From Myxococcus landrumus (GTDB lineage: Bacteria > Myxococcota > Myxococcia > Myxococcales > Myxococcaceae): 64,000 nt of DNA. Positions 5,567 to 51,506 of this stretch are shown here, piece after piece (the stretch's first letter is position 1; every line of letters begins with the position of its first letter). The notes under the pieces were generated by a model. It did no database searches. It worked only from the letters and a program-made list of their open reading frames with translations, and had not been told where the DNA came from. The stretch is from positions 6,460,001 to 6,524,000 of the forward strand of contig NZ_CP071091.1 of assembly GCF_017301635.1 (NCBI RefSeq), given 5' to 3'. The translations under genes were made by a program, and so were the position numbers.

Positions 5567-6357
5567 CGGGGGCAGTCCATGGAAGCGAAGTGGCGCCGCT
5601 TGGTGGGCGTCAGCATCCGCATGGTGAAGGTGGTCTCGATGGGGAACACGTACTGCTGCCGGGCCACACGCGAGGCGAGCTCGGAGCGGATGTCTCCCGC
5701 CACCGTGATGGGATTCGAGAACTCCCCCTGGTTCCAGTTCGCGTCCTTCTCCGCGAGGATCAACGGATTGGCCGCCCGGTAGTCCTGGATGCCCATCTGC
5801 GCCATGAACATGCGCGACATCACCCAGTTCGCGAACGGGATGCGCAGCGGGTACCAGTAGATGAGCTGCACCTCCAGTCGCCGCAGGTGCCCCGGCTCGT
5901 CGAACTCCTTGTCCTGCGGGCTGCCCACCCCACCACCGATGATGGCCCGGTTGATCCACACGATGCTTCCCGTGTGCACCCCGTCCAACCCCGCCTGGAA
6001 GCGGTTGTCCCGGCGCGCCCGGAACGCCGCCGCCAACCGCGCTGGCGCTCCACCACCGCCGCCGTGACGCACTTCGTCAGTGCTGCTCGACAGGCCGAGG
6101 AAGGAATGAAACGAAGGTATCAACGCGAGGATGGCCGCGTGCGTCATCCGCTCGCATTCGCCATGCGCCACGCTACCCGCACGGGTGGCTTGGAACGCCG
6201 CGTAATGCGCGAGCACCCTCGCCTGCAACATGAGGAACAATTGCAACGTGCCCAGCAACAGGAACACGACGAGGGGAAGCGTCAACGCCGCCTCTACCAT
6301 CGCTTGTCCTGACTGGCCCTGGTTTCCGCGAGGGTCGGAATTCATGGCAGCACGCAT
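5563..6357 (-). CDS. TadE-family pilus assembly protein, first gene of operon
   Basis: About 264 residues from the ATG at 6357 (a second ATG at 6345 and a TTG at 6393 are alternatives). The N-terminal segment GQSGQAMVEAALTLPLVVFL followed by a hydrophobic stretch is the typical TadE signature: G-Q-x-M-V-E processing region and one membrane helix. The rest faces outward. It starts a chain of five genes that overlap by one to eight bases, ending at the secreted protein that stops at 1884. A candidate sigma-54 promoter lies 50-60 nt upstream, and the preceding gene encodes a sigma-54 activator, so nitrogen-type promoter control is plausible but unproven. Confidence 0.85.
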   Translation of the reverse strand: MRAAMNSDPRGNQGQSGQAMVEAALTLPLVVFLLLGTLQLFLMLQARVLAHYAAFQATRAGSVAHGECERMTHAAILALIPSFHSFLGLSSSTDEVRHGGGGGAPARLAAAFRARRDNRFQAGLDGVHTGSIVWINRAIIGGGVGSPQDKEFDEPGHLRRLEVQLIYWYPLRIPFANWVMSRMFMAQMGIQDYRAANPLILAEKDANWNQGEFSNPITVAGDIRSELASRVARQQYVFPIETTFTMRMLTPTKRRHFASMDCPR

Positions 6358-6405
6358 GTTCCAGGTATTTGCGTCCCCAAGGACATACGTCAACTTGCCC
6401 GTGTC

Positions 6406-6419
6406 GCAAGACTGTCACC
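6406..6419 (-). promoter_or_regulatory. Weak candidate sigma-54 promoter of the Tad-like operon
   Basis: Reading the minus strand, GGTGACAGTCTTGC has the GG-N10-GC spacing required by sigma-54 and a perfect TTGC -12 element, but the -24 element keeps only the GG. Predicted start of transcription is near 6394, about 37 nt before the ATG at 6357. The neighbouring gene encodes a sigma-54 activator. Confidence 0.35.
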
Positions 6420-6456
6420 CAGCCTCGCGCTACAAGCCCGTCGCGGTCATGTTTCA

Positions 6457-6475
6457 CTCAGGGGGATTCCCTGAG
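6457..6475 (-). terminator. Perfect 7-bp inverted repeat after the activator gene
   Basis: CTCAGGG and CCCTGAG separated by five bases, beginning 12 nt beyond the stop of the FHA activator gene. It could end that transcript, or be an activator-binding dyad about 70 nt upstream of the Tad-like operon start. No U-tract follows. Confidence 0.4.
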
Positions 6476-6486
6476 GCCCCGCGGGC

Positions 6487-7920
6487 TCAGCGCGGCTTCA
6501 TGCCCTTCGTGTCGAGCTGATATTTCTTCACCAGCCGCTCGATGGACTTGCGGTGCAGCCCGCTCTCCCGCGCGGCGCGGGAGAGGTTGCCCTCGCAGCG
6601 GGTGAGGACGCTGGTGACGTACTCGCGCTCGAAGTTCTCCAGCAGCTGCTCCTTCGCGTCCTTGAACGAGAGGTGCTCGTTGAAGGGCAGCGGTCCCTCG
6701 CGCGTCTGCCCGCGCACTCGCGGCGGGAGGTGTGCGGGCTGAATCTCCTCGCCCTCGCTGAACGTCAGCACGTGTGACAACACGTTCATCAGCTCGCGCA
6801 CGTTGCCCGGCCACGGATAGGACATCAGCAGGCCCATCGCCTCCGGCGAGAAGCGCTTCTTGCCGTGCTTGAGCACCACCTCCGGGTCCGCCAGCGCCTC
6901 CTTCAAGATGAGCGGAATGTCATCCCGGCGCTGACGCAGCGGCGGCAGCTGAATCGTTATCACCGAGAGGCGGAAGTAGAGGTCCTCGCGGAAGTTCCCC
7001 GCCTGAATCTCCTTCATCAAGTCGCGGTTCGTCGCGGCGATGACCCGACAGCTCACCTCGATGACGTCGTTGCCGCCCACGCGCCGCACCTCGTGGTTCT
7101 CCAGCACCCGCAGCAGCTTGGGCTGGAGGTCCAGGCGCAGCTCGCCCAGTTCGTCCAGGAAGATGGTGCCGCCGTGCGCGCGCTCGAACGCACCGGGCCG
7201 TCCGCTCACCGCGCCCGTGAAGGCGCCCTTCTCGTGGCCAAACAGCTCGCTCTCGATGAGGTTGGGCGGGATGGCGCCGCAGTCCAGCACCTCCATGGGC
7301 GACTTGTTGCGGCCCGACAGCTCATGGATGGCTCGCGCCACCAGCTCCTTCCCCGTGCCCGTCTCGCCTTGGATGATGACGGACACATCCAGCGGGGCGA
7401 TCTTCTTGATGAGCCCGAAAATCTGCCGCATCTTCACGCTCTGCCCCACCATCCCGCACAGCTCGCCGTCACGGTCGGGCTCGATGGTGACTTCCTCGTC
7501 GAGCGGCGCGAAGGTCAGCACGGACGAGCCCGCTCGAATCTGCGAGCCCGGTGAGAGATAGGCGCGCTCAATCCTGCGCCCATCCAGGAACGTCCCGTTG
7601 GTGGAGCCCAAATCCACCAGCAGATAGCCCCGCTCGGTGAACTGGATTTCAAAGTGGTGGCGGCTCGCGGTGCGGTCCTCCACCAGCACCAGGTCATTGC
7701 CCGGATGCGCGCCACAGCGCAGGCGCTCCTTGTCGCTGACGACCGAGCGCCCCGTGTCCGGCCCGGAGGCCACCGCGAGGCGACACTTGTGCAGCTTCAC
7801 CGTGGTGCGTGGGTCCACCACGAGCGTCTCCCCCAACAACGGGGAGTGGGCGAGGTCAAGCCCGGCGGCCTCTCCGGGGCTGGTGTGGATGTCGTCGGGA
7901 TGCGGATCTGTCGCGCTCAT
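6487..7920 (-). CDS. FHA-domain sigma-54-dependent transcriptional activator
   Basis: 477-residue enhancer-binding protein. Order: FHA domain at about 45-137 (GNDLVLVEDRTASRHHFEI and STNG at 106-109, the phosphothreonine-binding signature); AAA+ domain at 155-385 with Walker A GETGTGKE (185-192), the sigma-54 contact loop GAFTGA (232-237) and Walker B TIFLDELGEL (252-261); Fis-type HTH at about 436-470 (GNLSRAARESGLHRKSIERL). FHA replaces the usual receiver domain, so control is expected through Ser/Thr protein kinases, which myxobacteria have in large numbers. ATG at 7920 chosen because the FHA domain starts soon after; further upstream is out-of-family sequence. Targets are unknown; the downstream Tad-like operon and the amidase at 14.6-16.2 kb both have candidate sigma-54 sites. 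Confidence 0.95.
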   Translation of the reverse strand: MSATDPHPDDIHTSPGEAAGLDLAHSPLLGETLVVDPRTTVKLHKCRLAVASGPDTGRSVVSDKERLRCGAHPGNDLVLVEDRTASRHHFEIQFTERGYLLVDLGSTNGTFLDGRRIERAYLSPGSQIRAGSSVLTFAPLDEEVTIEPDRDGELCGMVGQSVKMRQIFGLIKKIAPLDVSVIIQGETGTGKELVARAIHELSGRNKSPMEVLDCGAIPPNLIESELFGHEKGAFTGAVSGRPGAFERAHGGTIFLDELGELRLDLQPKLLRVLENHEVRRVGGNDVIEVSCRVIAATNRDLMKEIQAGNFREDLYFRLSVITIQLPPLRQRRDDIPLILKEALADPEVVLKHGKKRFSPEAMGLLMSYPWPGNVRELMNVLSHVLTFSEGEEIQPAHLPPRVRGQTREGPLPFNEHLSFKDAKEQLLENFEREYVTSVLTRCEGNLSRAARESGLHRKSIERLVKKYQLDTKGMKPR

Positions 7921-8000
7921 CTCGTCACGAGGATAGCAAACGCGCCCCACACGGCCCGCTGTCGTCCAACGGCCCGTGCTACGCTTGAAGTCTCCCGCCC

Positions 8001-8999
8001 ATGTCCCCCCGAAAAATCCAGAAGAAGGCCCCGGCCATGCCTGGGTCCCCGGCACCCGAGCGTCCCGCGCCGCGCCGCCCACGCACGAAGAAGACGGTGG
8101 CCATCCTGTCCCGGAAGCGCTCGCTCTACTCGACGCGCCGGCTGGTATCCGCCATTCGCGAGCGAGGCCATCGTCCCCTGGTGCTGGACACACTGCGTTG
8201 TTGCCTGCTGCTCGCCCAGGGCGCGCCGCGCATGACGTACCGCGGGGTGGAGATTCGCGGGGTGGACGTCGTGGTGCCTCGCATCGGCGCGTCCATCACC
8301 GCCTACGGGCTGGCGGTGGTGAATCACTTCGAGATGATGGGCGTGCCGGTGCTCAACCCGCCGACGTCCATCGCACGCAGCCGGGACAAGCTGCGCGCGC
8401 TCCAGTTCCTGTCGGGCTCCGGCCTGGACATTCCTCGCACCGTCATGGCGCATGACCGCAGCAACGTGCGCCGGCTGGTGGAGGAGGTGGGTGGCCTGCC
8501 CGTCATCATCAAGCTCATCAAGGGCACGCAGGGCGTGGGCGTGATGATTGCGCACACGCTGCCCGAGGTGCAGACCATCCTGGATACGTTCTGGGACCTG
8601 GGGCAGGAAATCGTGCTGCAGGAGTTCGTCGCGGAGAGCGAGGGCCGCGATGTCCGGGCGCTCGTGGTGGGCAGGCGTGTGGTGGGCGCCATGCGACGCA
8701 AGGCGAAGAAGGGCGAGTTCCGCTCCAACATCCACCGCGGCGGTGAAGGGCAGGCAATCGAGCTTCCTCCCGCGTACATGGAGGCCGCCGTGCGGGCCGC
8801 GACCATCGTCGGCCTGGAGGTGGCGGGCGTGGACATGCTGGAGGGCCATGCGGGACCCAGGTTGATGGAAATCAATTCCAGCCCCGGCTTCGAGGGACTG
8901 GAGCGCGCGACGGGCCAGGACATCGCGGGAGAAATCATCGAGCACGCGCTGACTTACGCCGAGCTGAAGGCGAGTGCTCCGCGCCTGTCGCGCACGTGA
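8001..8999 (+). CDS. RimK-family ATP-grasp ligase
   Basis: 332 residues. After a basic, proline-rich N-terminal tail (about 1-35) comes the RimK N-terminal fold (VAILSRKRSLYSTRRLVSAI) and then an ATP-grasp domain: SRDKLRALQFLSGSGLDIPRT, the nucleotide-binding GLPVIIKLIKGTQGVGV, QEFVAESEGRDVRALVVG, and the metal-binding end RLMEINSSPGFEGLE. RimK proteins add glutamate residues to the C-terminus of ribosomal protein S6 or to related acceptors such as glutathione-like or cofactor substrates; the acceptor cannot be read from sequence. It is divergent from the FHA activator gene with an 80-bp shared upstream region. The ATG at 8001 has no clear Shine-Dalgarno; an in-frame ATG at 8037 is an alternative. 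Confidence 0.93.
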   Translation: MSPRKIQKKAPAMPGSPAPERPAPRRPRTKKTVAILSRKRSLYSTRRLVSAIRERGHRPLVLDTLRCCLLLAQGAPRMTYRGVEIRGVDVVVPRIGASITAYGLAVVNHFEMMGVPVLNPPTSIARSRDKLRALQFLSGSGLDIPRTVMAHDRSNVRRLVEEVGGLPVIIKLIKGTQGVGVMIAHTLPEVQTILDTFWDLGQEIVLQEFVAESEGRDVRALVVGRRVVGAMRRKAKKGEFRSNIHRGGEGQAIELPPAYMEAAVRAATIVGLEVAGVDMLEGHAGPRLMEINSSPGFEGLERATGQDIAGEIIEHALTYAELKASAPRLSRT

Positions 9000-9121
9000 G
9001 CAACGACGGCCTCGCGAGGTTGGCCGCATGCCTTGAAGCAAGCGAGCAGCCTGGGCCGAAGGTGCCTTGCATGCTCCTCAGGAACACAGGAATGGATTTC
9101 GCGCTCGCGTGTCATGGGGAG

Positions 9122-9149
9122 TTGGCAGCGGCGCGGCGTGGCCTCTAAT
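9122..9149 (+). promoter_or_regulatory. Sigma-70-type promoter of the DsbA-like gene
   Basis: TTGGCA (five of six bases of the -35 consensus) and TCTAAT (five of six of the -10) are separated by 16 bases. Transcription would start near 9156, only about six to seven bases before the ATG at 9163, and the sequence before that ATG has no Shine-Dalgarno. This predicts a nearly leaderless mRNA. Confidence 0.5.
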
Positions 9150-9162
9150 CTGGCGGCCCCGA

Positions 9163-9834
9163 ATGAAAACGCCGCACAAGCCGCTGCAGGTTACCGTCTA
9201 CCAGGATGTGCTGTGTTCCTGGTGCTATCTCGCCGACCTGCGCCTGGATGTCTTGCGCCAGGAGCTGGGCGAAGCCGTGCGTTGGAGCGTGAGGCCGTAT
9301 CCGCTTCGTCTGCACGACGTGCTTCCCACGGAGCGCGAGAAGCGCGGGCTCGTGGAGGAAGTGCAGCGCGCGCAACGCGAGTCGGACGCGACGGCGCCGC
9401 TGCTATCCACGGACCTGTGGTTGGGAGGAGACCCGCCGCGCAGCAGCGTGCCGGCGCTGGCGGCGCTGGAGGCCGCGCGACTGCAAGGGCCGCAGGCGCG
9501 GGCGTTCCTCGCGCGAGCCATGCAGCGCGCCGCGCTGGAGCAAGGCGTCAACGTGTCGCGCACGGATGTCGTGTTCGAGCTGGCCTCGCGCGTGGGCCTG
9601 GCGATGAACGAGTTCTCCGCGGCGTTCCGTTCCGAGGAGACGCGGCGGCTCATCCTCGACGAGCACCGCGATGCGACCGCGCGCGGCGTGCGCGGTGTGC
9701 CCACGCTGGTCATCGGCGGGCGGTGGATGCTCTGCGGCCTGCGCGAGTTGACCGAGTACCGCGAGCACATCCTGGCCTGCATGGGCCGGGTGGCCGCACC
9801 GCGCTCGGGTTCCTCCGAGCGACTGGTGCACTGA
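9163..9834 (+). CDS. DsbA/FrnE-like thiol oxidoreductase
   Basis: 223 residues with a thioredoxin fold. The strand VTVYQDVLCSWCY has the CxxC pair (Cys18 and Cys21), and the cis-proline region is seen in GVRGVPTLVIGGRWMLCG near the C-terminus, the features of the DSBA-like family that includes FrnE and 2-hydroxychromene-2-carboxylate isomerase relatives. No signal peptide is visible, so a cytoplasmic location is likely. The ATG at 9163 is chosen because homologous sequence starts right there and it sits just downstream of a good sigma-70 promoter. Substrate unknown. Confidence 0.92.
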   Translation: MKTPHKPLQVTVYQDVLCSWCYLADLRLDVLRQELGEAVRWSVRPYPLRLHDVLPTEREKRGLVEEVQRAQRESDATAPLLSTDLWLGGDPPRSSVPALAALEAARLQGPQARAFLARAMQRAALEQGVNVSRTDVVFELASRVGLAMNEFSAAFRSEETRRLILDEHRDATARGVRGVPTLVIGGRWMLCGLRELTEYREHILACMGRVAAPRSGSSERLVH

Positions 9835-9846
9835 AGAGCGACTCCC

Positions 9847-9874
9847 CGGCGCCCGCACGATTCCTGGGGCGCCG
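9847..9874. terminator. GC-rich hairpin between convergent genes
   Basis: CGGCGCCC and GGGCGCCG pair perfectly around a 12-base loop in the 55-bp gap between the DsbA-like gene (ending 9834) and the convergent membrane-protein gene (ending 9890). It could terminate both transcripts; no U-tract on either side. Confidence 0.5.
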
Positions 9875-9889
9875 AGGCACGACGCGACG

Positions 9890-10870
9890 TCAGGACTCCC
9901 GTTGCTCGCCCCGGCTGAGCGACAGGTAGAGGCCCGCGAAGAGCAGGTAGAAGAACCCCATGGCGGGAATCACGGGCAGGCAGCAGAGGAAGACGCTCAC
10001 CATGAGGATGAGGGTGGCCAGGAAGGCGGCCCCGAACATCGACAGGCGCTGCCCCTTCACATAGCCGAAGCACTTGCGGATGGTGTCGATGACCTTGGGG
10101 TTCTCGGTGTCCGCGAGCGCGACGGAGACGAGCGCCAGCGGCATGCCAATCCAGATGCTCGGGACGGCGACAATCAGGACACAGAGCCCCACCGCCACCA
10201 ACAACACGGAGGCCTGGGTCATCTCCATGAGCTGCTTGACGTCACTCACCGAGCTCAGGTCGGACACACTGATGCCCGCCACGGCCACGAAGGCGCCGAC
10301 CATCACGGCGAAGCACAGCAGGATGATGGGGAGGAAGATGGCGACCGCCAGCAGGTTGCTGACGACATAGGCCCCCACCTTGTTGACCTGGCTGAACAGG
10401 CGGCCCACGTCCGCGCGCTGTCCCTGAATCACATCCAGGCAGACACGCATCATCCCCATGATGGCGACGCCCTGCACCACCCACGAGAGCACCGTGCCCA
10501 GCAAGATGAACACGACGCTCGCGGCGCCGCCCATCTTCTCACCGACGAGCTTCAGCACCTCGGAGACGGCACCACCGAGCATGACGCCCATCAAGAACAG
10601 CAGGGCGCAGACGGTCAACATCACCCACTCGCGCTTGAACGCCGCCCAGCTCACCTCGAAGAGGCCACCGATGGTCCAGTTGTTGCGGTCCATCGGGAAG
10701 GCGCGGCCCTGCCCGTCCCGCTCCCGGCAGGTGGGGCACTGCGACTGGGTGCCCTGCTCCCCGCAGATGTCGCACATGAAATTGCCGCAGCGCGTACAGG
10801 TCCGCTGAGCGAGGTTCTCCGGATGAAGCGGGCACGTTGCCCCTCTCCCCCAACCAGCATTCGACTCCAT
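9890..10870 (-). CDS. Zinc-ribbon/B-box-like integral membrane protein
   Basis: 326 residues. The N-terminal 50 residues contain a Cys/His cluster (CPLHPENLAQRTCTRCGNFMC followed by CGEQ and CPTC) like the B-box-type zinc fingers seen on many myxobacterial membrane proteins. Six or so hydrophobic segments follow (for example VMLTVCALLFLMGVMLG, VVFILLGTVLSWVVQGVAIMG, LLAVAIFLPIILLCFAVMVG, and a C-terminal LILMVSVFLCCLPVIPAMGFFYLLFAGLYL region). So it is an inner-membrane protein with a small cytoplasmic metal-binding head. Function not known. Confidence 0.85.
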   Translation of the reverse strand: MESNAGWGRGATCPLHPENLAQRTCTRCGNFMCDICGEQGTQSQCPTCRERDGQGRAFPMDRNNWTIGGLFEVSWAAFKREWVMLTVCALLFLMGVMLGGAVSEVLKLVGEKMGGAASVVFILLGTVLSWVVQGVAIMGMMRVCLDVIQGQRADVGRLFSQVNKVGAYVVSNLLAVAIFLPIILLCFAVMVGAFVAVAGISVSDLSSVSDVKQLMEMTQASVLLVAVGLCVLIVAVPSIWIGMPLALVSVALADTENPKVIDTIRKCFGYVKGQRLSMFGAAFLATLILMVSVFLCCLPVIPAMGFFYLLFAGLYLSLSRGEQRES

Positions 10871-11099
10871 GAAGGTGCCCTCTCCTCGCGCGACGGGTCC
10901 GGCATGCCCCGGCCTTCGAGTCGCGCCTCTGGCGCACCTACACCATCCCGTGCGCTGTCCACCAGGGCACAGTCCCCTAAACAGCGAGCAGGCGGGCGAG
11001 AAGCTCCGGGGTGAATTTTCCTCCGGACCCGGCGTCAGAGGGCCCGTGGTCGCGAAGTGGGACTGGCTGATGGTGCCCTTCGCACGGGAGACTCGTCAC

Positions 11100-12308
11100 A
11101 TGCGCCGACTGCTCGCACTCGCCATCCCTCTCGCCCTGATGATGGGGACGGGTTGCTACGCCCACTACCATGGCCCCGCACGACACGGCGGCGGCGGCGT
11201 GGTGGTGGACTACAGCTATTCGGGTGACCACCCCGTTCCGGACGATGATGGCGGCGGCTGGTGCCCGTACACCCACGTCCACTCGCACGGCTACCGCCCG
11301 TCGACCACGTACTACACCTACACCGACGACGTGTATTACTACCGAGGCCCCACGCTGGTCTGGTACTGGGACTTCCACCTGGACCCGCACGGCTCCTCGT
11401 GCCACCAGCACGGGCGTCACTCGCACGACTACTACCCGAGCTCCGGCCGGGCGTATCGCTGGGAGCGCAGCCGCGGGTACGTGTTCGACCGGACCCATGG
11501 CGCCTCCGCGGGCTACGGCTACTCCCGTGGCCGCTCGCAGCAGCCGTCGCGTCGCCACGTCTCCCGCGACGATGACGGCCCGACGAACCGTCCTCCTCCC
11601 TCCGGCACGGGCTGGGGCACGCAGCCTCCTCGTGGCGGCTCGCGCGACGACAACAACGGCGGCGGCTGGGGCAACGGGGGTTATGGCCGAGGCAACCAGG
11701 GCGGCCCGCGGCGCGACCGGGATGACGATGACGACCGGGGCTCGGACAGGCCGGGACGCGGGTACGGCAACAACAACAATGGCGGCAGCACGCCCGGCGG
11801 CAGCGGCAATGGCAACTCCGGCGGTGGGTGGGGCAACTCGGGTGGCGACGGAGGCAACTCCAACGGCGGCGGCTACGGACGCGGTCGGCGCGACAACGAC
11901 AACGACAGCGACCGGGGGAACAGCAGCGGTGGTGGCTGGGGCAACGGCGGCGGGCGCGGCAACAGCGGCAACAACAGCGGCAACAGCAGCGGCGGCAACA
12001 GCAGTGGCGGCGGCTGGGGCAACGGCGGTGGGCGCGGCAGCAGTGGCAACAGCAGCGGGAACAGTGGTGGCAACAGCAGTGGGAACAGCAGCGGCGGCGG
12101 TTGGGGCAGCGGCGGCGGGCGCGGCAGCAGCGGCAACAGCAGTGGGAACAGCGGCGGCAACAGCAGCGGTGGTGGCTGGGGCAACGGCGGCGGCCGAGGC
12201 TCCAGTGGAAGCTGGGGCAGCGGCGGTGGCTCGCAGAGCTCGGGCGGTGGTGGTGGTGGTGGCGGGAAGTCCAGCTCGCAGAGCAACGACCGCGGCGGCT
12301 GGCGCTGA
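11100..12308 (+). CDS. Gly/Asn/Ser-repeat lipoprotein
   Basis: 402 residues. The N-terminus MRRLLALAIPLALMMGTGCY ends in a lipobox (MGTGC), so it is exported and lipidated at Cys19. Residues 20-150 are rich in Tyr and His (HYHGPARHGGGGVVVDYSYSG and similar). From about 180 to the end the protein is almost only Gly, Asn, Ser, Arg, Asp and Trp, as repeats built on GGGWGNGGGRGSSGNSSGN. Such a sequence is expected to be disordered and sticky, fit for a surface or matrix component. Start at 11100 is chosen for the lipobox; the upstream frame is not protein-like. Confidence 0.85.
   Translation: MRRLLALAIPLALMMGTGCYAHYHGPARHGGGGVVVDYSYSGDHPVPDDDGGGWCPYTHVHSHGYRPSTTYYTYTDDVYYYRGPTLVWYWDFHLDPHGSSCHQHGRHSHDYYPSSGRAYRWERSRGYVFDRTHGASAGYGYSRGRSQQPSRRHVSRDDDGPTNRPPPSGTGWGTQPPRGGSRDDNNGGGWGNGGYGRGNQGGPRRDRDDDDDRGSDRPGRGYGNNNNGGSTPGGSGNGNSGGGWGNSGGDGGNSNGGGYGRGRRDNDNDSDRGNSSGGGWGNGGGRGNSGNNSGNSSGGNSSGGGWGNGGGRGSSGNSSGNSGGNSSGNSSGGGWGSGGGRGSSGNSSGNSGGNSSGGGWGNGGGRGSSGSWGSGGGSQSSGGGGGGGGKSSSQSNDRGGWR
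11640..12290 (+). repeat. Low-complexity repeats encoding Gly-Asn-Ser-rich tail
   Basis: Tandem, imperfect repeats of AACAGCAGCGGCGG-type units encode the tail of the lipoprotein. At least five copies of a GGGWG(N/S)GGGRG block alternate with (GNS)n stretches. They are coding repeats, not a CRISPR array, and are prone to length change by slippage. Confidence 0.85.
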
Positions 12309-45231: not shown

Positions 45232-46698
45232 ATGCCGAGCAATCCCTGGAGAACCCGCTGTGCCGCCGTGGTGTTCACCGCGTTGTCTTCACTCGTGGGG
45301 TGTGGAGAGGACACGCCGTCGCATCCCAACGAGCCGTCGACCCCGAAGGCCCGGCTGCGCATCATCCACGCCTCGCCGGATGCGCCCGCGGTGGACATCT
45401 ACGCGGAGGGCCAGAGCACGCCGCTCTTCAGCCACGTGAAGTATGGAGACACCACCTCCTACGCCTCGGTCCCCACGGGCACGTACAACGTCCAGGTGCG
45501 CGCGGCGGGCGCCGCGGCCACGTCCACGCCTGTCTATTCCACCGGACCACTGACGCTCGGCGAAGGGCACACGCTCAGCGCGGTGGCCGCGGGGCTGCTC
45601 TCGTCCTCCGAGTCGTCGCGAGCCTTCCGCGTGCTCCCGCTCACCGAGGGCTTCAACCCTCCCACGGACGGACGCACGCGCGTGCGCATCATCCATGCGG
45701 GCGCGGATGCCCCCGCCGTCTCCCTGGACGTCGGCGACGACGGCACCTCCGAAATCACCGGGCTGCAGCGCTTCCAGGACACGGGCGCCAGCGGCGTGGA
45801 GCTGCCCTCGGGGCAGGTCCTCCAGGTGGGCATCCGCACGGCGACCCACACGAAGGTGACGTCCTTCACCCTCCCCGCGCTTCCCTCGCGCGGTGAGCTG
45901 TTCGTCATCGCCACGGGTCAGCTCTCCGAGAAGCCCGGCGCGCCCGGGGGCTTCGGCCTGCTGGCCGCGGGCGTGGGCCTGGTCCGGCAGAATCCCGTCG
46001 TCTACGCGCTGCACGCGTCACCCGACGCGCCCTCGGTGGACATCTTCGCGGGCAACGCGGAGCTGGTGGATGGCCTGACCTTCGGCAACCTGTCCGCGCC
46101 CATCCAGGTGCCCCCGGGGCAGTACACCCTGGACTTCTTCGTCAACGTCTCCGGGAGCACGCGCCCCTCGGGCGCTCCCGCCGCCTCGCGCGCCACGCCC
46201 TCGCTGGTGGCCGGTCAGCGTTATCTCGCCCTGGCGTCAGGCTTCCTCAGCCCCGCCGCGAATGACCCGGTGGACTCCACCTTCGAGCTGCTCGCCTTCT
46301 CCGATGACTTCATCTCCGACGCGGACAGCCTGCGCCTGCGGGTCATCCATGCCTCGCCCGACGCGCCCGTCGTGGATGTGTCGCCGCTGGAGGCGGGGCT
46401 CGTCCCGGCCAGCGCGGCCTTCAACGACGTGCCCTACCGCCGGGCCTCCGCCCCCGAGGGCCTGGAGCTCCCCGCCGTGCAAGCCGTGGTGGGCGTGGCG
46501 GCGGCCTCCGCGTCGGACCGCGCGCCCGTGGCCCGGTTCCCGTTGGACACCGCCCCCTTCGTCGGCCGAGGCGTCTTCGCCGTGGCCCTGGGCGCCCTCA
46601 CTCCCACTGTTGGAGAAAACGAGCAGGGCTTCCGGCTGGTGCTCGTGGACACGCGGACTTCGCCTTGGAGTGCATTAGGTGTCCACCCTCTGCCGTAA
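45232..46698 (+). CDS. DUF4397-repeat lipoprotein
   Basis: 488 residues. MPSNPWRTRCAAVVFTALSS with lipobox LVGC, so a lipoprotein. Four copies of the DUF4397 start signature follow: RLRIIHASPDAPAVDIYAEG, RVRIIHAGADAPAVSLDVGD, VYALHASPDAPSVDIFAGN and RLRVIHASPDAPVVDVSPLE, each leading a domain of about 100 residues with a VPxGxY strand. The domains are beta-sandwich-like and probably bind partners at the cell surface; no enzymatic site seen. GAGGAGCGG sits six bases before the ATG at 45232 and fixes the start. A hairpin after the stop separates it from the RCC1 gene. Confidence 0.9.
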   Translation: MPSNPWRTRCAAVVFTALSSLVGCGEDTPSHPNEPSTPKARLRIIHASPDAPAVDIYAEGQSTPLFSHVKYGDTTSYASVPTGTYNVQVRAAGAAATSTPVYSTGPLTLGEGHTLSAVAAGLLSSSESSRAFRVLPLTEGFNPPTDGRTRVRIIHAGADAPAVSLDVGDDGTSEITGLQRFQDTGASGVELPSGQVLQVGIRTATHTKVTSFTLPALPSRGELFVIATGQLSEKPGAPGGFGLLAAGVGLVRQNPVVYALHASPDAPSVDIFAGNAELVDGLTFGNLSAPIQVPPGQYTLDFFVNVSGSTRPSGAPAASRATPSLVAGQRYLALASGFLSPAANDPVDSTFELLAFSDDFISDADSLRLRVIHASPDAPVVDVSPLEAGLVPASAAFNDVPYRRASAPEGLELPAVQAVVGVAAASASDRAPVARFPLDTAPFVGRGVFAVALGALTPTVGENEQGFRLVLVDTRTSPWSALGVHPLP

Positions 46699-46741
46699 CG
46701 TCTTTTCGTTGCGGACGTTCAAGCATTACCCAGGTCATCTG

Positions 46742-46802: not shown

Positions 46803-48038
46803 ATGAAGCATCGCGTCGGGGTTGTTCTCGCATGCGTCGCGCTGACGAGCGCGTGCCTGGACCCCATCCAGAGCGCCACCGACACCGTCGAACCTCCCTG
46901 CGGGGAGCCCGGCGCCCCCCTGTGTCCGGCGCCGCCTCCTCCGCGGGGCCTGGCCAAGACGGTGACGGTGGGGAAGCAACACGCCTGCGCGCTGCTGGAG
47001 ACGGGCGGCGTGAAGTGCTGGGGCGGCACGGGGCTGGCGGGGGATGGAACACGCGCGCTGCGCCCCACGGCCGTGGCCGTGCGCGGCCTGGACCGGGGCG
47101 TGCTGACCATCGGCGCTGGCGTGGAGCACACCTGCGCGCTCCTGGAAGGGGGCGTCGTGCGGTGCTGGGGCGGCAACACCCGGTGGCAGCTCGCCATCGA
47201 AAACACCGAGCCCGCGCTGGAGCCCATCTCCATTGGCAAGCTGGGCTCCAACGTCATCGGGCTCGCCGTCGGTGACGAGCACTCCTGTTCGCTCCACGCG
47301 GGGGGCGCGGTGAAGTGCTGGGGAAACAACGACGACTTCCAGCTCGGGGTGGACCCCGCCAGCATGCCTCGCGGCCCGTCGCCCACGCCCGTGTCCGTGG
47401 AGGGGCTGCCCAGCGACGTCACCGTCATCGCCGCGGGGGGCAAGCACACGTGCATCGCCACCGTGGACGGCCAGGCGTGGTGCTGGGGTGACAACACCTA
47501 CGGCGCCCTGGGGGATGGCCAGGCGGCGCCCCTGCTCCGCTCGCTTCCCGTCCAGGTGCAGGGGCTCTCCGGCCCCGTGCGCGCGTTGACGGCGGGCACG
47601 AGTCACACGTGCGCCCGCGTGGGGGATGGCGACATCGAGTGCTGGGGCCTCAACGCCTCGGGCGAGCTGGGAGATGACACCGCGTTGAACCGCGTCGTCC
47701 CCGTGCGGCCGGCGGGACTGCCCTCGGACATGCGTCAGGTGCGAGCGGGGGGTGGCAGCACCTGCGCGCTGAGCATGGACGGACGGGCGCGCTGCTGGGG
47801 GGCGAATGCCGCGGGGCAACTGGGGGACGGGACGCTGCTCCACCGGCCCGCTCCGGTGGGCGTGTCGGACCTGGGCGGTGAAGTCGTGGATGTGGACACG
47901 GGTGCGTCGAACACATGCGCGGTGCTGCGGGACGGGCGCGTGCAGTGCTGGGGCAGCAATGCCACCGGCCAGTTGGGGGACGGGTCGCAGACGGACCGCA
48001 CGACGCCCGTGGTGGTGCAGGGGCTTGGGGCCCCCTGA
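46803..48038 (+). CDS. RCC1-repeat lipoprotein, first gene of the sigma/caspase operon
   Basis: 411 residues. MKHRVGVVLACVALTSAC is a lipoprotein signal (lipobox TSAC). Then seven RCC1-type blades, each with a C-A-L/C-W-G pattern (HACALLETGGVKCWGG, HTCALLEGGVVRCWGG, HSCSLHAGGAVKCWGN, HTCIATVDGQAWCWGD, HTCARVGDGDIECWGL, STCALSMDGRARCWGA, NTCAVLRDGRVQCWGS). Two Cys per blade probably lock each one by a disulfide, which fits the periplasm or cell surface. RCC1-like propellers bind proteins. Only 13 bases separate it from the sigma factor gene, so it may be the sensor or substrate side of the same system; that is inference. Confidence 0.88.
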   Translation: MKHRVGVVLACVALTSACLDPIQSATDTVEPPCGEPGAPLCPAPPPPRGLAKTVTVGKQHACALLETGGVKCWGGTGLAGDGTRALRPTAVAVRGLDRGVLTIGAGVEHTCALLEGGVVRCWGGNTRWQLAIENTEPALEPISIGKLGSNVIGLAVGDEHSCSLHAGGAVKCWGNNDDFQLGVDPASMPRGPSPTPVSVEGLPSDVTVIAAGGKHTCIATVDGQAWCWGDNTYGALGDGQAAPLLRSLPVQVQGLSGPVRALTAGTSHTCARVGDGDIECWGLNASGELGDDTALNRVVPVRPAGLPSDMRQVRAGGGSTCALSMDGRARCWGANAAGQLGDGTLLHRPAPVGVSDLGGEVVDVDTGASNTCAVLRDGRVQCWGSNATGQLGDGSQTDRTTPVVVQGLGAP

Positions 48039-48051
48039 GAGGGAGAATGGA

Positions 48052-48738
48052 ATGTCGCTGCTGAGGGAGAACCCGAAGTTGCTGGAGTCCTTTCGCCGGG
48101 GAGAGCCGGAGGCGCTCACCCGCGTGTACCAGGCCTATTCGGCGCATGTGGCGCGCTTCCTGTCGCGCACCTACGTGTCCCATGGTCCTGGAGGACTGGC
48201 GCGCGTGGGGCCTCTCGACCTGGAGGCCGCGCACCAGGAGACCTTCGTGCGCGCCTTCCGGGAGCAGGCGCGGCTGGCCTACGACGGCGTGCGGCCGTTC
48301 TCCGCGTGGCTGAACGCGGTGGCACGGCAGGCCGCGGTGGATGTGCTGCGCGCCGCTGGACGCATCGCCCGAGAGGCGGTGCCCTTGGATGACACGCTCA
48401 TGGCGGAGCGGCTGGCGAGCAACGCCCCATCTCCCGAGGACCGCGCGCTGGAGGTGGAGACGCGGGAGCTGGTGACGCGCTTCCTCGCGGGGCTCGACGA
48501 GCCGACGCGCAGGTTGGCGGACCTGCGCTTCGTGCAGGGACTCTCCCAGGAGCGCGCGGGCCAGGTGCTGGGGCTGTCCCGGCAGGAGCTGCGGACGCGC
48601 GAGAACAAGCTGCGCCGCGCGATGACCACGTTCCTGGTGGAGGAAGGCTGGCTCACCCCCGAGTCGTCCGACGCCGTGCCCTCCGCCGCCGCCACCGCCG
48701 CCTTGCTGGCCATTCTCTTCCCCCACTTCGTGCCCTGA
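48052..48738 (+). CDS. Sigma-70 family (ECF-like) RNA polymerase sigma factor
   Basis: 228 residues. Region 2 at about 20-103 (EALTRVYQAYSAHVARFLSR, the HQETFVRAFREQARLAYDG core, RPFSAWLNAVARQAAVDVLR) and region 4 at about 138-190 (RFLAGLDEPTRRLADLRFVQ, GLSQERAGQVLGLSRQELRT). The loop between them is short, as in ECF sigma factors. The protein ends with an unusual Ala-rich, hydrophobic tail (AATAALLAILFPHFVP) that may hold it at the membrane or at the anti-sigma protein. Next gene is a membrane protein with an anti-sigma motif, 16 bases after. Target promoters not identified. Confidence 0.9.
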   Translation: MSLLRENPKLLESFRRGEPEALTRVYQAYSAHVARFLSRTYVSHGPGGLARVGPLDLEAAHQETFVRAFREQARLAYDGVRPFSAWLNAVARQAAVDVLRAAGRIAREAVPLDDTLMAERLASNAPSPEDRALEVETRELVTRFLAGLDEPTRRLADLRFVQGLSQERAGQVLGLSRQELRTRENKLRRAMTTFLVEEGWLTPESSDAVPSAAATAALLAILFPHFVP

Positions 48739-48754
48739 CTCGAGCAACCTGACC

Positions 48755-49672
48755 ATGGCCTTGTTCTCCTCACACGTGGACCAACAGCTCGTCCACCTCG
48801 CCAACAACGGCGTCCTGCCGCCTCGCCAGTGGAGCCGGGTGCTGCGCCATGCCCGGGACTGCGCGAGGTGCGGCGCGCGCTACGAGCGGGTGATGAACCT
48901 GCGCCGCGTCTTCGCGCGCGACACCGTCACGGAGCCATCCGGAGGAGAGCTGGAGTGGCTCGCGACGCATCGGCTGGCCAGCGTGCTCGACACGGTGGAT
49001 TGGGAGTCGCGGCATGGAGGCTCCGGGCGTGCGCCGGGCGAAGCGCGCAGTGACACGGGCGTGCGCCGGGCGCATCGCTGGTGGTTGCAGCGGGTGTTCT
49101 CCAAGCGCGTGGCTTCGACGGAGGAGCAGGCGCGGCTGGGCGCTCCGGCGCGCGAGGGCCGAGGGTGGGCCCACCGGCTCCTGGACACGCTCCACTTGAG
49201 CCCCGTGGGTGGAGCCTGGGTCGTCGCGCTGATGGCGGCGGGGGGACTCCTGTGGCTGAGCCTTCCTTCCGAGACCACCGAGTGGGGCGTGCGCGGACAG
49301 GGGCAGGCCGTGGCGGTGCGCTTGTTCTGTGTCCCCGACAAGACGGAGCTTCGGGAGGTGCGGGGCGAAGGCACCTGTCCGGCGGGGGCGTCGCTGGCGT
49401 TCGCCGCGGGGGCTCGGGCTCCGTACACGCACGTCGCCGTGACGATTCGCACGAGTCAGGGTGTGCGCGTGGAGGGCCCGTTCGAGGTGCAGGCATCGCC
49501 GGGCGCGGAGACGGCGCTGGACCTCACGCCTCGGATGCCTGTCAACGGGGAGGTGCGGCTCACCACCACGTTCGCGAACAGCGCGGCCGCGGCGCTCGCC
49601 GCGGCGAAGGGTGAAGCCGTGCGCGATGCCGTGCAGTTCCACCACCGCGTGCGCGTGGGGGACTCACGATGA
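48755..49672 (+). CDS. Membrane anti-sigma factor with ZAS motif
   Basis: 305 residues. The cytoplasmic N-terminus has HARDCARC (His32, Cys36, Cys39), the H-x3-C-x2-C zinc-binding motif of ZAS anti-sigma factors. A basic linker leads to a single membrane segment at about 153-170 (GAWVVALMAAGGLLWLSL), and about 135 residues lie outside, including two Cys (FCVP and GTCP) and a beta-rich end. This is the expected layout for a protein that holds the neighbouring sigma factor until its outside domain is cut. The gene's stop overlaps the start of a 34-codon ORF (ATGA). No signature of a particular anti-sigma subfamily was seen beyond the ZAS motif. Confidence 0.85.
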   Translation: MALFSSHVDQQLVHLANNGVLPPRQWSRVLRHARDCARCGARYERVMNLRRVFARDTVTEPSGGELEWLATHRLASVLDTVDWESRHGGSGRAPGEARSDTGVRRAHRWWLQRVFSKRVASTEEQARLGAPAREGRGWAHRLLDTLHLSPVGGAWVVALMAAGGLLWLSLPSETTEWGVRGQGQAVAVRLFCVPDKTELREVRGEGTCPAGASLAFAAGARAPYTHVAVTIRTSQGVRVEGPFEVQASPGAETALDLTPRMPVNGEVRLTTTFANSAAAALAAAKGEAVRDAVQFHHRVRVGDSR

Positions 49673-49773
49673 GACCGGTGAACGACGTGTTCATGTTTCG
49701 ACTCCGTACCCAGTGGCGCGCGAGTGCTGGCGTGAACCTCTACTCCTCCGAGCACGCGGGAGACGTCCCATGA
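49669..49773 (+). CDS. 34-codon ORF coupled to both neighbours
   Basis: Too short for most gene finders. It starts MRPVNDVFMFRLRTQWRASA and ends ...EHAGDVP. Its ATG overlaps the anti-sigma stop (ATGA) and its own stop overlaps the caspase start (ATGA), so ribosomes could pass through all three. The first 54 bases match the first 54 bases of the caspase gene at 38 positions (MRPVNDVFMFRLRTQW against MTPASDVGMFRLCALW), which suggests a partial duplication of that gene's start. Either a remnant or a small coupling peptide. Confidence 0.45.
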   Translation: MRPVNDVFMFRLRTQWRASAGVNLYSSEHAGDVP

Positions 49774-51506
49774 CCCCAGCAAGCGACGTGGGCATGTTTC
49801 GACTCTGTGCTTTGTGGCTTGCCTGTGTCGCGACGGGAAGCATCGCCCAGCCCGTCGATGCGCCCACCTCGGAGCCAAGTCCCGTACGACGCGCGCTGGT
49901 CGTCGCCTTCAACGGCAGCGATGCCCCCGGAATGCCGCCCTTGCGCTACGCCGATGATGACGGCGTGCGCTGGGCGGAGACGCTCAGGCGCCTGGGCGTG
50001 GACGTGCTGCTGCTCACCGTGCCCGACGCGGACACCGCGAAAGTCGAACGCCGTCAATTGACGGAGGTCCGCGCGCCCACGCTCGCCGCGCTCGATGAGG
50101 CCGTGGCGATGTTCTCCCGGCGCAACCTGGAGGACCGCGCGGCCGGCCGCACGGTGGACTTCCTCTTCATCTACGTGGGCCACGGCCGCACCAGCGAATC
50201 CTCGCGTGCGTACCTCACGCTCGCCGACGGACGGCTGGACCAGGAGGGTCTCTACTCGCGCGTGGTGGAGAAGCTCGACGCGGACTACGTGCACCTGCTC
50301 GTGGATGCCTGCCACGCCGCGGGGGTCGTGGGCAGTCGCGGCGACCCCCTGGTGCTCACGCGACTGCGACGCGCCCTGGAGCAGGAACAACTCGCGGGCC
50401 ACCCTCGCGTGGGCGCCATCTTCGCGGAGAGCAACGAAGGCGAGACCCACGAGTGGTCCCGCATCCGCGCGGGTGTCTTCAGTCATGCGGCACGCTCCGC
50501 GCTGATGGGGGGCGCGGACGTCAACCATGACGGGCTCGTGGAATACAGCGAGCTCGACGCCTTCGTGGCCGCGGCGATTCGCGGCGTCAAATCACCTCAA
50601 GCCCGGCTCGCGGTGCGAACCTTCCCTCCCGCGCTCAGCCCCTCGCGCCCCCTCGTCGGCCCCGCACCCGATGGGCCTCGACTCCACCTGCCCGCGACAC
50701 CGGGCGGCGCGCGCATCTCCGTGGAGGATGCCTCGGGAGTCCGGCTCGCGGATGCACATCAGGCCGCGGGAGAGACGCTGTCCCTCGCGCTGCCCGAGCG
50801 AGAGGTGTACTGGCTGAGCACCCCCACGGGCGAAGCACGCGTGCGACGCGAGGACCTGGACGAGGGCTCGCTTCCACGCCTCACCGAGCCCGAGGTGGCC
50901 CTGCGTGGCGCCACCGAGGAGAGCCTGCTCCAGGGCCTCTTCGCCCTGCCCTTCGGACGCGACTTCTACGAGGGCTACGTCACCTCCTCCGGCATCGCCG
51001 CCGTGGACTTCACCGGCCCCCTGCGCGCCGACGGCCCCTCGGGACTTCCCCGCTCGCTGGGGCTTGAAATCGGCTTCACGCTGTCGACCGCGCCCCTGGG
51101 TGGCACGGGGGCCGCCAGGGGACTGGCCCTGTCATGGCGGATGCCGGGCCCCGGCCTCCTTCGCTGGGGCGTGCGAGCCACCTACGCGATGGCCCCGAAC
51201 TCCTGGGTGGACGACGCCACGCTCCAGCGCGTGGCCGTGATGGCCCTGGGGGGACTGCACGGCCGAGGCGACCTGGCCCCCTTCGCCGAAGTGGGCGCGG
51301 GGTGGCTGATGCTCGTGGTGGACCGCGCCAATAGCAGGCAAGGCGACTCCGCCGGATTCACCGCCCGCTCCGCCGCGGGCCTCCGCTGGCGGCCTGGAGA
51401 TTTCGGGCTGCGCGGCGGACTGACCTTGGACCTGGACTCGGCCCGCGAGGATGGACGTCGCCGTGCGCGTCTGGTCCCCGGCCTGGAGCTGGGGCTGGAG
51501 CGCTGA
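49770..51506 (+). CDS. Caspase-family (C14) protease with signal peptide and C-terminal barrel-like region
   Basis: 578 residues. ATG at 49770 with GGGAG upstream. A signal peptide (FRLCALWLACVATGSIAQ) ends near residue 27. The caspase p20-like fold follows at about 38-270: RRALVVAFNGS, catalytic His138 in FIYVGHGR and Cys181 in LLVDACHAAG. At 250-261 DVNHDGLVEYSE is a near-perfect EF-hand calcium loop. A linker and small beta domain (about 300-370) lead to the last 200 residues with alternating hydrophobic strands (LGLEIGFTLSTAP, GLALSWRMPG, RWGVRATYAMAP, FAEVGAGWLMLVV, LRGGLTLDLDSA), ending VPGLELGLER, as in small outer-membrane barrels. So a protease facing the periplasm, probably fixed in the outer membrane. 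Confidence 0.85.
   Translation: MTPASDVGMFRLCALWLACVATGSIAQPVDAPTSEPSPVRRALVVAFNGSDAPGMPPLRYADDDGVRWAETLRRLGVDVLLLTVPDADTAKVERRQLTEVRAPTLAALDEAVAMFSRRNLEDRAAGRTVDFLFIYVGHGRTSESSRAYLTLADGRLDQEGLYSRVVEKLDADYVHLLVDACHAAGVVGSRGDPLVLTRLRRALEQEQLAGHPRVGAIFAESNEGETHEWSRIRAGVFSHAARSALMGGADVNHDGLVEYSELDAFVAAAIRGVKSPQARLAVRTFPPALSPSRPLVGPAPDGPRLHLPATPGGARISVEDASGVRLADAHQAAGETLSLALPEREVYWLSTPTGEARVRREDLDEGSLPRLTEPEVALRGATEESLLQGLFALPFGRDFYEGYVTSSGIAAVDFTGPLRADGPSGLPRSLGLEIGFTLSTAPLGGTGAARGLALSWRMPGPGLLRWGVRATYAMAPNSWVDDATLQRVAVMALGGLHGRGDLAPFAEVGAGWLMLVVDRANSRQGDSAGFTARSAAGLRWRPGDFGLRGGLTLDLDSAREDGRRRARLVPGLELGLER

Follow-up and report, generated by a model that had tools for sequence, protein, structure and literature searches.

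A predicted caspase-gated sigma factor operon with a candidate anti-sigma cleavage site in Myxococcus landrumus

The window analysed here is a stretch of 64,000 nucleotides from Myxococcus landrumus (contig NZ_CP071091.1, positions 6,460,001 to 6,524,000 of the forward strand; the host genome is a single contig of 10.4 Mb). It contains an operon of four genes encoding an RCC1-repeat predicted lipoprotein, a sigma factor, an anti-sigma factor with one transmembrane (TM) segment and an exported caspase-family protein, and the gene content and coordinates given in an earlier sequence-only reading of this region agree with our profile matches and motifs. We consider it somewhat better than an even bet that the operon encodes a self-contained envelope signalling unit, in which the caspase would cut the linker of the anti-sigma factor at R180-G181 and so free the sigma factor. 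The sequence-only reading had already proposed that the caspase attacks the anti-sigma factor from its outer side; conserved gene order, a four-base coupling of the two genes, a conserved active site that includes candidate acidic S1 positions and the co-occurrence of a basic-Gly motif with the caspase argue for it, whereas the cleavage itself, like catalysis, the exact cut site, the role of Ca2+, the later proteolysis and the signal, is what we infer.

In the proposed sequence of events, the ZAS-type anti-sigma factor would keep the sigma factor inactive at the inner membrane, its immunoglobulin (Ig)-like outer domain facing the periplasm. Once activated, possibly with involvement of Ca2+ at an EF-hand-like loop, the exported protease of metacaspase type, which its barrel probably anchors in the outer membrane, would cleave the anti-sigma factor between R180 (a Lys in many of the relatives) and the Gly that follows, a position in the disordered linker some 11 residues beyond the TM helix on the periplasmic side. 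Without its outer domain the anti-sigma factor would be reduced to a short stub that an intramembrane protease could attack, and the released sigma factor would then drive transcription of at least its own operon. The central features, numbered from the first base of the window, are these.

48052..48738, + strand: extracytoplasmic function (ECF)-like sigma factor (TIGR02937 E 2e-19, PF07638 E 7e-7, both over cut-off)
48755..49672, + strand: membrane anti-sigma factor with ZAS-like N-terminus, one TM segment and Ig-like outer domain (motif, model)
48848..48871, + strand: HxxxCxxC motif (H32, C36, C39), in 37 of 37 aligned class I anti-sigma factors
49202..49261, + strand: TM helix, residues 150-169 (model)
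49292..49297, + strand: R180-G181, predicted caspase cleavage site between TM segment and outer domain, in 37 of 37 class I anti-sigma factors
49770..51506, + strand: exported caspase-family protein with C-terminal outer-membrane barrel (PF00656, model)
49881..50624, + strand: caspase (metacaspase-like) domain, about residues 38-285 (PF00656, model; 6w8s_A, Z 18.4, root-mean-square deviation (rmsd) 2.9, 214 aligned)
49959..49961, + strand: D64, candidate acidic S1 residue (66/66; aligns to D of the metacaspase ND motif)
50181..50183, + strand: catalytic His138 (66/66)
50304..50312, + strand: D179-A-C181, candidate acidic S1 residue and catalytic Cys (C181 66/66; D179 56/66, Ala in 10)
50451..50453, + strand: E228, candidate third acidic S1 residue, at the MALT1 E500 position by eye (66/66)
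50517..50552, + strand: EF-hand-like loop D250-x-N-x-D254-G-...-E261 (D250 66/66, D254 65/66, E261 66/66; weak EF-hand profile matches)
51042..51503, + strand: eight-stranded outer-membrane beta-barrel, about residues 425-578 (model; NspA 1p4t, Z 18.0, rmsd 2.6, 149 aligned)

Among 145 genomes of the order, relatives of the caspase were found in 86 (E 1e-10), of the anti-sigma factor in 54 (E 1e-5) and of the sigma factor in 83 (E 1e-10). From about 66 class I rows, 40 loci were picked by hand (most on very short contigs omitted); all 40 have the anti-sigma gene and 39 the sigma gene, with the order kept, the upstream region of the fortieth lying outside the sequence read. Since this order recurs in 39 of 40 loci, the trio of sigma factor, anti-sigma factor and caspase is an association beyond chance. 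The expectation that all four genes would be found together in related genomes thus holds for the trio but not for the RCC1 gene (13 of the 40), which all 13 loci of clade IA, that of the window, possess and none of the 27 loci of its sister clade IB; it is therefore accessory and restricted to one clade. The RCC1 protein had also been put forward as a candidate sensor, a role to which its confinement to that clade is an objection.

Elsewhere in the phylum, PF00656 matched at E 1e-6 in 101 of 116 Myxococcota genomes. Forty caspases from 30 genomes outside the window's genus were picked, non-randomly, for lineage spread among the matches listed; 27 have a sigma gene and then a one-TM open reading frame (ORF) upstream on the same strand, and 13 do not. 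Because a codon-based gene finder performs poorly in low-GC lineages, these loci were scored on stop-to-stop ORFs, using a sigma profile built from the sigma factors of classes I-III and of the window's own genome. At one locus (L241) the anti-sigma gene lies about 0.6 kb upstream of the caspase gene and does not directly adjoin it. The own genome has 10 matches to the caspase family C14, six of them with sigma, anti-sigma and caspase genes in order, one with anti-sigma and caspase and no sigma gene seen, one with neither, and two in a region that allowed no judgement; the six, two class I loci and L212 make nine full sets. The sigma factor of the window exceeds the curated cut-offs of sigma-70 family ECF profiles (TIGR02937, 69.8 bits against 42.9; PF07638, 29.7 against 21.1; PF04542, 26.8 against 24) and stays under that of PF04545 (22.6 against 24.1). 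Eight others, namely the six own-genome sigma factors and those of L212 and the IB paralogue, score over a cut-off of a Pfam sigma family.

The anti-sigma factor has the HxxxCxxC N-terminus, the single TM segment and the position beside a sigma gene that mark the ZAS type, and matched no Pfam or NCBIfam family over cut-off. Against DUF4384 (PF14326) the window's protein gave no match at E up to 1, and four caspase-linked paralogues of the own genome matched it weakly, under cut-off. In the predicted model the outer domain is well ordered, with a mean predicted local distance difference test score (pLDDT) of 92-98 over residues 191-300, and matches Ig-like folds up to Z 8.4 only, which may reflect a common arrangement. 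The linker (residues 171-182, which include R180-G181) has a pLDDT under 50 and is predicted to be disordered.

The basic-Gly motif of this linker was scored as [RK]G at 5-26 residues past the TM core, proteins being clustered at 45% identity. By this rule it is present in 89 of 94 caspase-linked anti-sigma factors (50 of 53 clusters) versus one of 36 for which no caspase was seen (0 of 19 clusters; Fisher p 1.3e-14), and over six range settings the counts are 88-90 of 94 versus 1-3 of 36. The 94 are what remains of 98 caspase-linked proteins after removal of four class I rows below the TM threshold (R-G in alignment A2). The 36 controls consist of 11 own-genome zf-HC2 loci (30 minus three caspase-linked and 16 with no TM segment or a distant one), 21 zf-HC2 loci of the phylum (29 minus eight without TM segment) and four of DUF4384 type. 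L260 was scored as caspase-linked despite a caspase about 2 kb off, L257 and L261, with motif and caspase, were left uncounted, and in L105 and L107 of class II the script's motif matches are out of register with the conserved Arg. Attention was first drawn to the motif by class I and own-genome proteins; of the 41 proteins gathered afterwards, 39 carry it. Two motif-bearing anti-sigma factors first scored as caspase-free turned out to have a caspase adjoining (L138/L212) or about 2 kb off (L260/L316). As a matched control, four DUF4384-type anti-sigma factors with a sigma gene upstream and no caspase within 4.5-6.5 kb on each side have the motif in no case. Its distance from the TM segment ranges from 5 to 24 residues. 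The P1 residue of motif carriers is Arg in class I (35/35) and class III (5/5), and Lys in the phylum set (24/25), the DUF4384 set (14/14) and the own-genome paralogues (6/7), a pattern that is suggestive of a specificity switch, though confounded by descent. We predict that the basic-Gly motif is the caspase cut site, with Arg or Lys at P1.

The caspase scores 23.5 bits against PF00656 (E 5e-5, cut-off 21.4), and its Pfam matches comprise this family and a weak one to PagL only. Its model (mean pLDDT 79) consists of an N-terminal helix, a caspase domain with the His/Cys dyad of family C14, a beta-rich middle part and an eight-stranded barrel. Foldseek matched the caspase part to MALT1, metacaspase-9 and caspases, and VIA-align gave metacaspase-4 (Z 18.4), legumains (18.3) and NspA (18.0) for the model; as the legumains are level with the metacaspases, the fold alone leaves the subfamily unfixed. 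Compared by sequence with the PDB, the class I caspase profile matched mainly EF-hand proteins and found no caspase, and the broader profile A3 matched metacaspase-4 (6w8s_A, E 2.6e-11); in that alignment D64 falls on the D of the ND motif, and D179 on the Asp preceding the catalytic Cys. According to the parts of the cited sources available here, as for all publications below, the potential S1 pocket of a trypanosome metacaspase is formed by C92, D95, S156 and D211, the preference of MALT1 for Arg at P1 is set by D365, D462 and E500 (PMC4357240), and metacaspases cleave after Lys or Arg in a calcium-dependent manner (PMC9622860). D64 and D179 by profile alignment, and E228 by eye, are candidate counterparts of known S1 residues. 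The 66 caspases compared are 39 of class I and 27 from the phylum, L065, which runs off its contig, being excluded.

The barrel strands, each of 10-18 residues, span residues 431-577, and an export helix is modelled at residues 7-24, at low confidence there; Foldseek matched the barrel to NspA, Ail, OmpX and OmpA. Many outer-membrane barrels end in an aromatic residue, and so do 18 of the 27 phylum module caspases. The notion of an exported, possibly outer-membrane-anchored protease is supported by this model, and the barrel probably holds the protease at the outer membrane.

A number of observations weigh against the cleavage reading. The candidate S1 residues are not specific to the module, as 13 of the 40 sampled caspases lie outside it and keep the dyad and D64. 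In these 13 C14 proteins the dyad and D64 are conserved in all, D179 in 12 and E228, D254 and E261 in 10 each; the dyad and D64, being equally kept without the module, are family traits, and only the calcium loop and E228 are held more tightly within it. D179 is replaced by Ala in 10 of the 27 phylum caspases. As to the motif, its residue range was fixed after a looser first look and wider ranges give 3 of 36 controls, and when the linkers are shuffled [RK]G still arises at a rate of 35% for caspase-linked proteins and 11% for controls. Five of the 94 lack it (three with R-S, all class II, one with K-A in L220 and one with neither in L227). Moreover, 32 of the 36 controls are zf-HC2 anti-sigma factors, most of which have outer domains of other kinds, and the flank read for them was only about 1.5 kb, so that the motif contrast may follow domain type; the four matched controls all belong to one genus and perhaps reflect one event. 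Class II caspases have no barrel, and those of class III have predicted C-terminal TM segments.

Geometry also poses a problem, since a protease whose barrel holds it in the outer membrane may be unable to reach a site beside the inner membrane. The difficulty could be solved if the caspase acted before insertion, if the gap were narrow locally, or if the caspase were released. The same geometry suggests another idea, improbable in our view, namely that the caspase serves as a sentinel of outer-membrane assembly: the inserted barrel would park the protease too far from its substrate, so that distance itself would be the signal, and failed barrel insertion or a disturbed outer membrane would leave free periplasmic caspase that cuts the anti-sigma factor near the inner membrane and starts the response.

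The relationship between the two proteins might also run in the reverse direction, with the anti-sigma linker lying as a pseudosubstrate in the S1 pocket and silencing the co-translated caspase, which would be the stress-released effector that the sigma factor makes more of. The four-base coupling suggests matched partners, a basic-Gly motif facing acidic S1 residues suits a pseudosubstrate as well as a substrate, and the strict promoter patterns described below find a site only at the operon itself. However, lasting contact would be needed between an inhibitor in the inner membrane and a protease whose barrel sits in the outer one, and the linker is predicted to be disordered, though in a model that contains no caspase; we consider this arrangement unlikely. 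The caspase could instead be merely a target or a co-regulated envelope protein, the first cut being made by another periplasmic protease. Other proteases likewise cut after exposed basic residues, which counts in favour of such a bystander role. In addition, a 2012 survey places caspase genes in many kinds of operon (PMC3501461). That the motif tracks the presence of the caspase gene and that the dyad is intact in 66 of 66 caspases nevertheless make a bystander caspase unlikely as well.

It is also quite unlikely, we think, that the basic-Gly motif is simply the structural start of the outer domain, with no tie to cleavage. Such a role would fit its place five residues ahead of the first strand in the window's model, and most carriers have a DUF4384-like or related outer domain, which most controls do not. 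On the other hand, the four DUF4384-type domains in caspase-free anti-sigma factors come without the motif, the distance to the TM segment varies, and confidence at the motif is low (pLDDT under 50).

Upstream of the operon lies a promoter-like motif, which is given here with the two remaining features.

46694..46720, + strand: ECF-type promoter-like motif CGTAACG-N15-CGTTC, 5' of the operon (conservation, fixed spacing)
46803..48038, + strand: RCC1-repeat predicted lipoprotein, accessory gene of clade IA (PF25390 E 4e-62, PF13540 E 2e-50)
49669..49773, + strand: 34-codon ORF, a copy of the anti-sigma/caspase junction that arose by tandem duplication and has decayed (alignment with caspase start, sister loci)

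The first bases of the promoter-like motif overlap the stop of the upstream gene. CGTAACG-N15-CGT is present at fixed spacing in 8 of the 12 clade IA loci with upstream sequence, and the strict IA pattern occurs once per genome, at the operon, in the window's genome and three sisters (backward control, 0). In clade IB, ACC-N16..20-CGTA precedes the sigma gene in 24 of 26 loci, compared with about 4% of random 200-bp pieces. The patterns were derived from the upstream alignment, and in L087 the first match differs from the aligned one. In the four genomes the strict patterns gave no second site, looser patterns for a wider regulon not having been searched. The operon's sigma factor would recognize the motif, and the operon is probably its own target.

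The RCC1 stop and the sigma start are separated by 13 bases, and the sigma stop and the anti-sigma start by 16. A lipobox-like stretch with its Cys is found in 12 of 12 clade IA RCC1 proteins with an available N-terminus, including that of the window (the thirteenth is cut by a contig end), although its -3 residue is often T; it is plausible that the RCC1 protein is a lipoprotein. A putative lipoprotein also lies after a class III caspase (L114:3954-5282), with repeats that we take to be FG-GAP-like. Like the RCC1 protein it may be a secreted propeller, and propeller lipoproteins may recur with these modules. For the sigma factor, a PADLOC scan gave a single weak match to JetD (E 0.006), which was judged spurious, and a defence reading was dropped.

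The 34-codon ORF, earlier counted as a coupled gene of the operon, does not stand as such. Its first 57 bases align to the start of the caspase gene; in the window 97 bases separate the anti-sigma and caspase genes, the caspase start overlaps the anti-sigma stop by four bases in the sister loci L056 and L057, and in L058 (G112) the junction is present in tandem copies of about 101 bp each. By these alignments the ORF is duplication debris and no conserved gene, and it was therefore left out of the mechanism, the four-base coupling being retained. With start codons picked by script, that overlap is found in 31 of 38 class I loci, with gaps of 46-561 bases in six and an overlap of one base in L089. 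Longer insertions of other sequence occur at the junction in L060, L061 and L062, and the junction seems prone to duplication or insertion.

Several loci depart from the arrangement of the window. In class II (L105-L110) the barrel-less caspase gene is divergent from the sigma and anti-sigma genes, and class III (L111-L114) has caspases whose C-terminal TM segments are predicted. On the 3' side of class II caspases, L105:7257-9139 and the matching genes of L107 and L110 encode a protein for which one or two TM segments are predicted, together with a putative lipoprotein; these may be additional genes of the module. L099:4468-7649 holds an anti-sigma gene and a 763-residue caspase, the C-terminal half of which is a long run of repeats, with no sigma gene seen alongside. 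In L316 (G157; 5951-11137), sigma and anti-sigma genes are divergent from a caspase gene about 2 kb off, with a 701-codon gene between and the KG motif kept; this locus is a split version of the module. L312-L315, from one genus of the order, have a sigma gene and a DUF4384-type anti-sigma gene with no caspase in the 11.4-13 kb around each, and represent a natural caspase-free version.

The gene association itself was already known, as sigma/metacaspase operons were reported in 2012 (Asplund-Samuelsson et al., PMC3501461): four of the five metacaspases of M. xanthus DK 1622 lie in predicted operons with sigma factors, and the association extends to Anaeromyxobacter, Haliangium, Sorangium, Ralstonia and Fibrobacter. 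It is the same association as here; the main text of that report makes no use of the terms anti-sigma, beta-barrel or periplasm, nor did we find in the parts available a mechanism or substrate for the operon. Open-licence literature on caspase genes with sigma factors in Myxococcus yielded only this report, and in such literature no description was found of the anti-sigma partner, the basic-Gly site, the barrel or the promoter, and no named substrate of these exported Myxococcota caspases. The suggestion of a different, maybe undescribed version would apply to the exported protease and the membrane anti-sigma factor, but not to the sigma/metacaspase operons, which had been reported.

In DegS-RseA-sigmaE regulated intramembrane proteolysis, which PMC10028731 mentions, an envelope-stress protease cuts a membrane anti-sigma factor and so frees an ECF sigma factor, the course of events also proposed here. 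DegS is a PDZ serine protease; the protease here belongs to the Cys peptidases of the caspase family and carries a predicted barrel, and its predicted P1 is basic. In Cas7-11-Csx29-Csx30-CASP-sigma, too, an ECF sigma factor is freed from inhibition through a caspase-clan protease, but there the pair consists of an RNA-guided TPR-CHAT protease and the Csx30 inhibitor (PMC10028731), as opposed to an exported protease and a membrane anti-sigma factor. CalpL-CalpT-CalpS is similar in being a protease-controlled transcriptional response, whereas it employs a Lon protease with a SAVED domain and a cyclic oligoadenylate trigger, and no such domain is among the Pfam matches here. There are no CRISPR genes among the four genes of the operon and no TPR or CHAT family among their Pfam and PADLOC matches. 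The likeness to CRISPR protease-sigma systems seen in the sequence-only reading is thus one of analogous sigma release and not of kinship, neither the Lon/SAVED nor the TPR-CHAT hallmarks being found. Caspase-like genes also stand beside ECF sigma genes in ECF54, with CHAT or subtilase neighbours, and in EACC2-caspase loci; in the available texts ECF54 is proposed to act without an anti-sigma factor and the word does not occur in PMC8195603, unlike the operon here (PMC8999054, PMC8195603). Against the profile of EACC1-associated caspases (NF047832) the caspase scored 19 bits, with a cut-off of 140, and EACC domains were not found.

With a candidate substrate and a cut site defined to the residue, the function of these caspases becomes open to a direct cleavage assay. 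If the proposed cleavage is true, this would be, as far as we know, the first case of an envelope sigma factor with a site-1 protease of the caspase family, and the operon would provide a non-CRISPR parallel to protease-gated sigma release.

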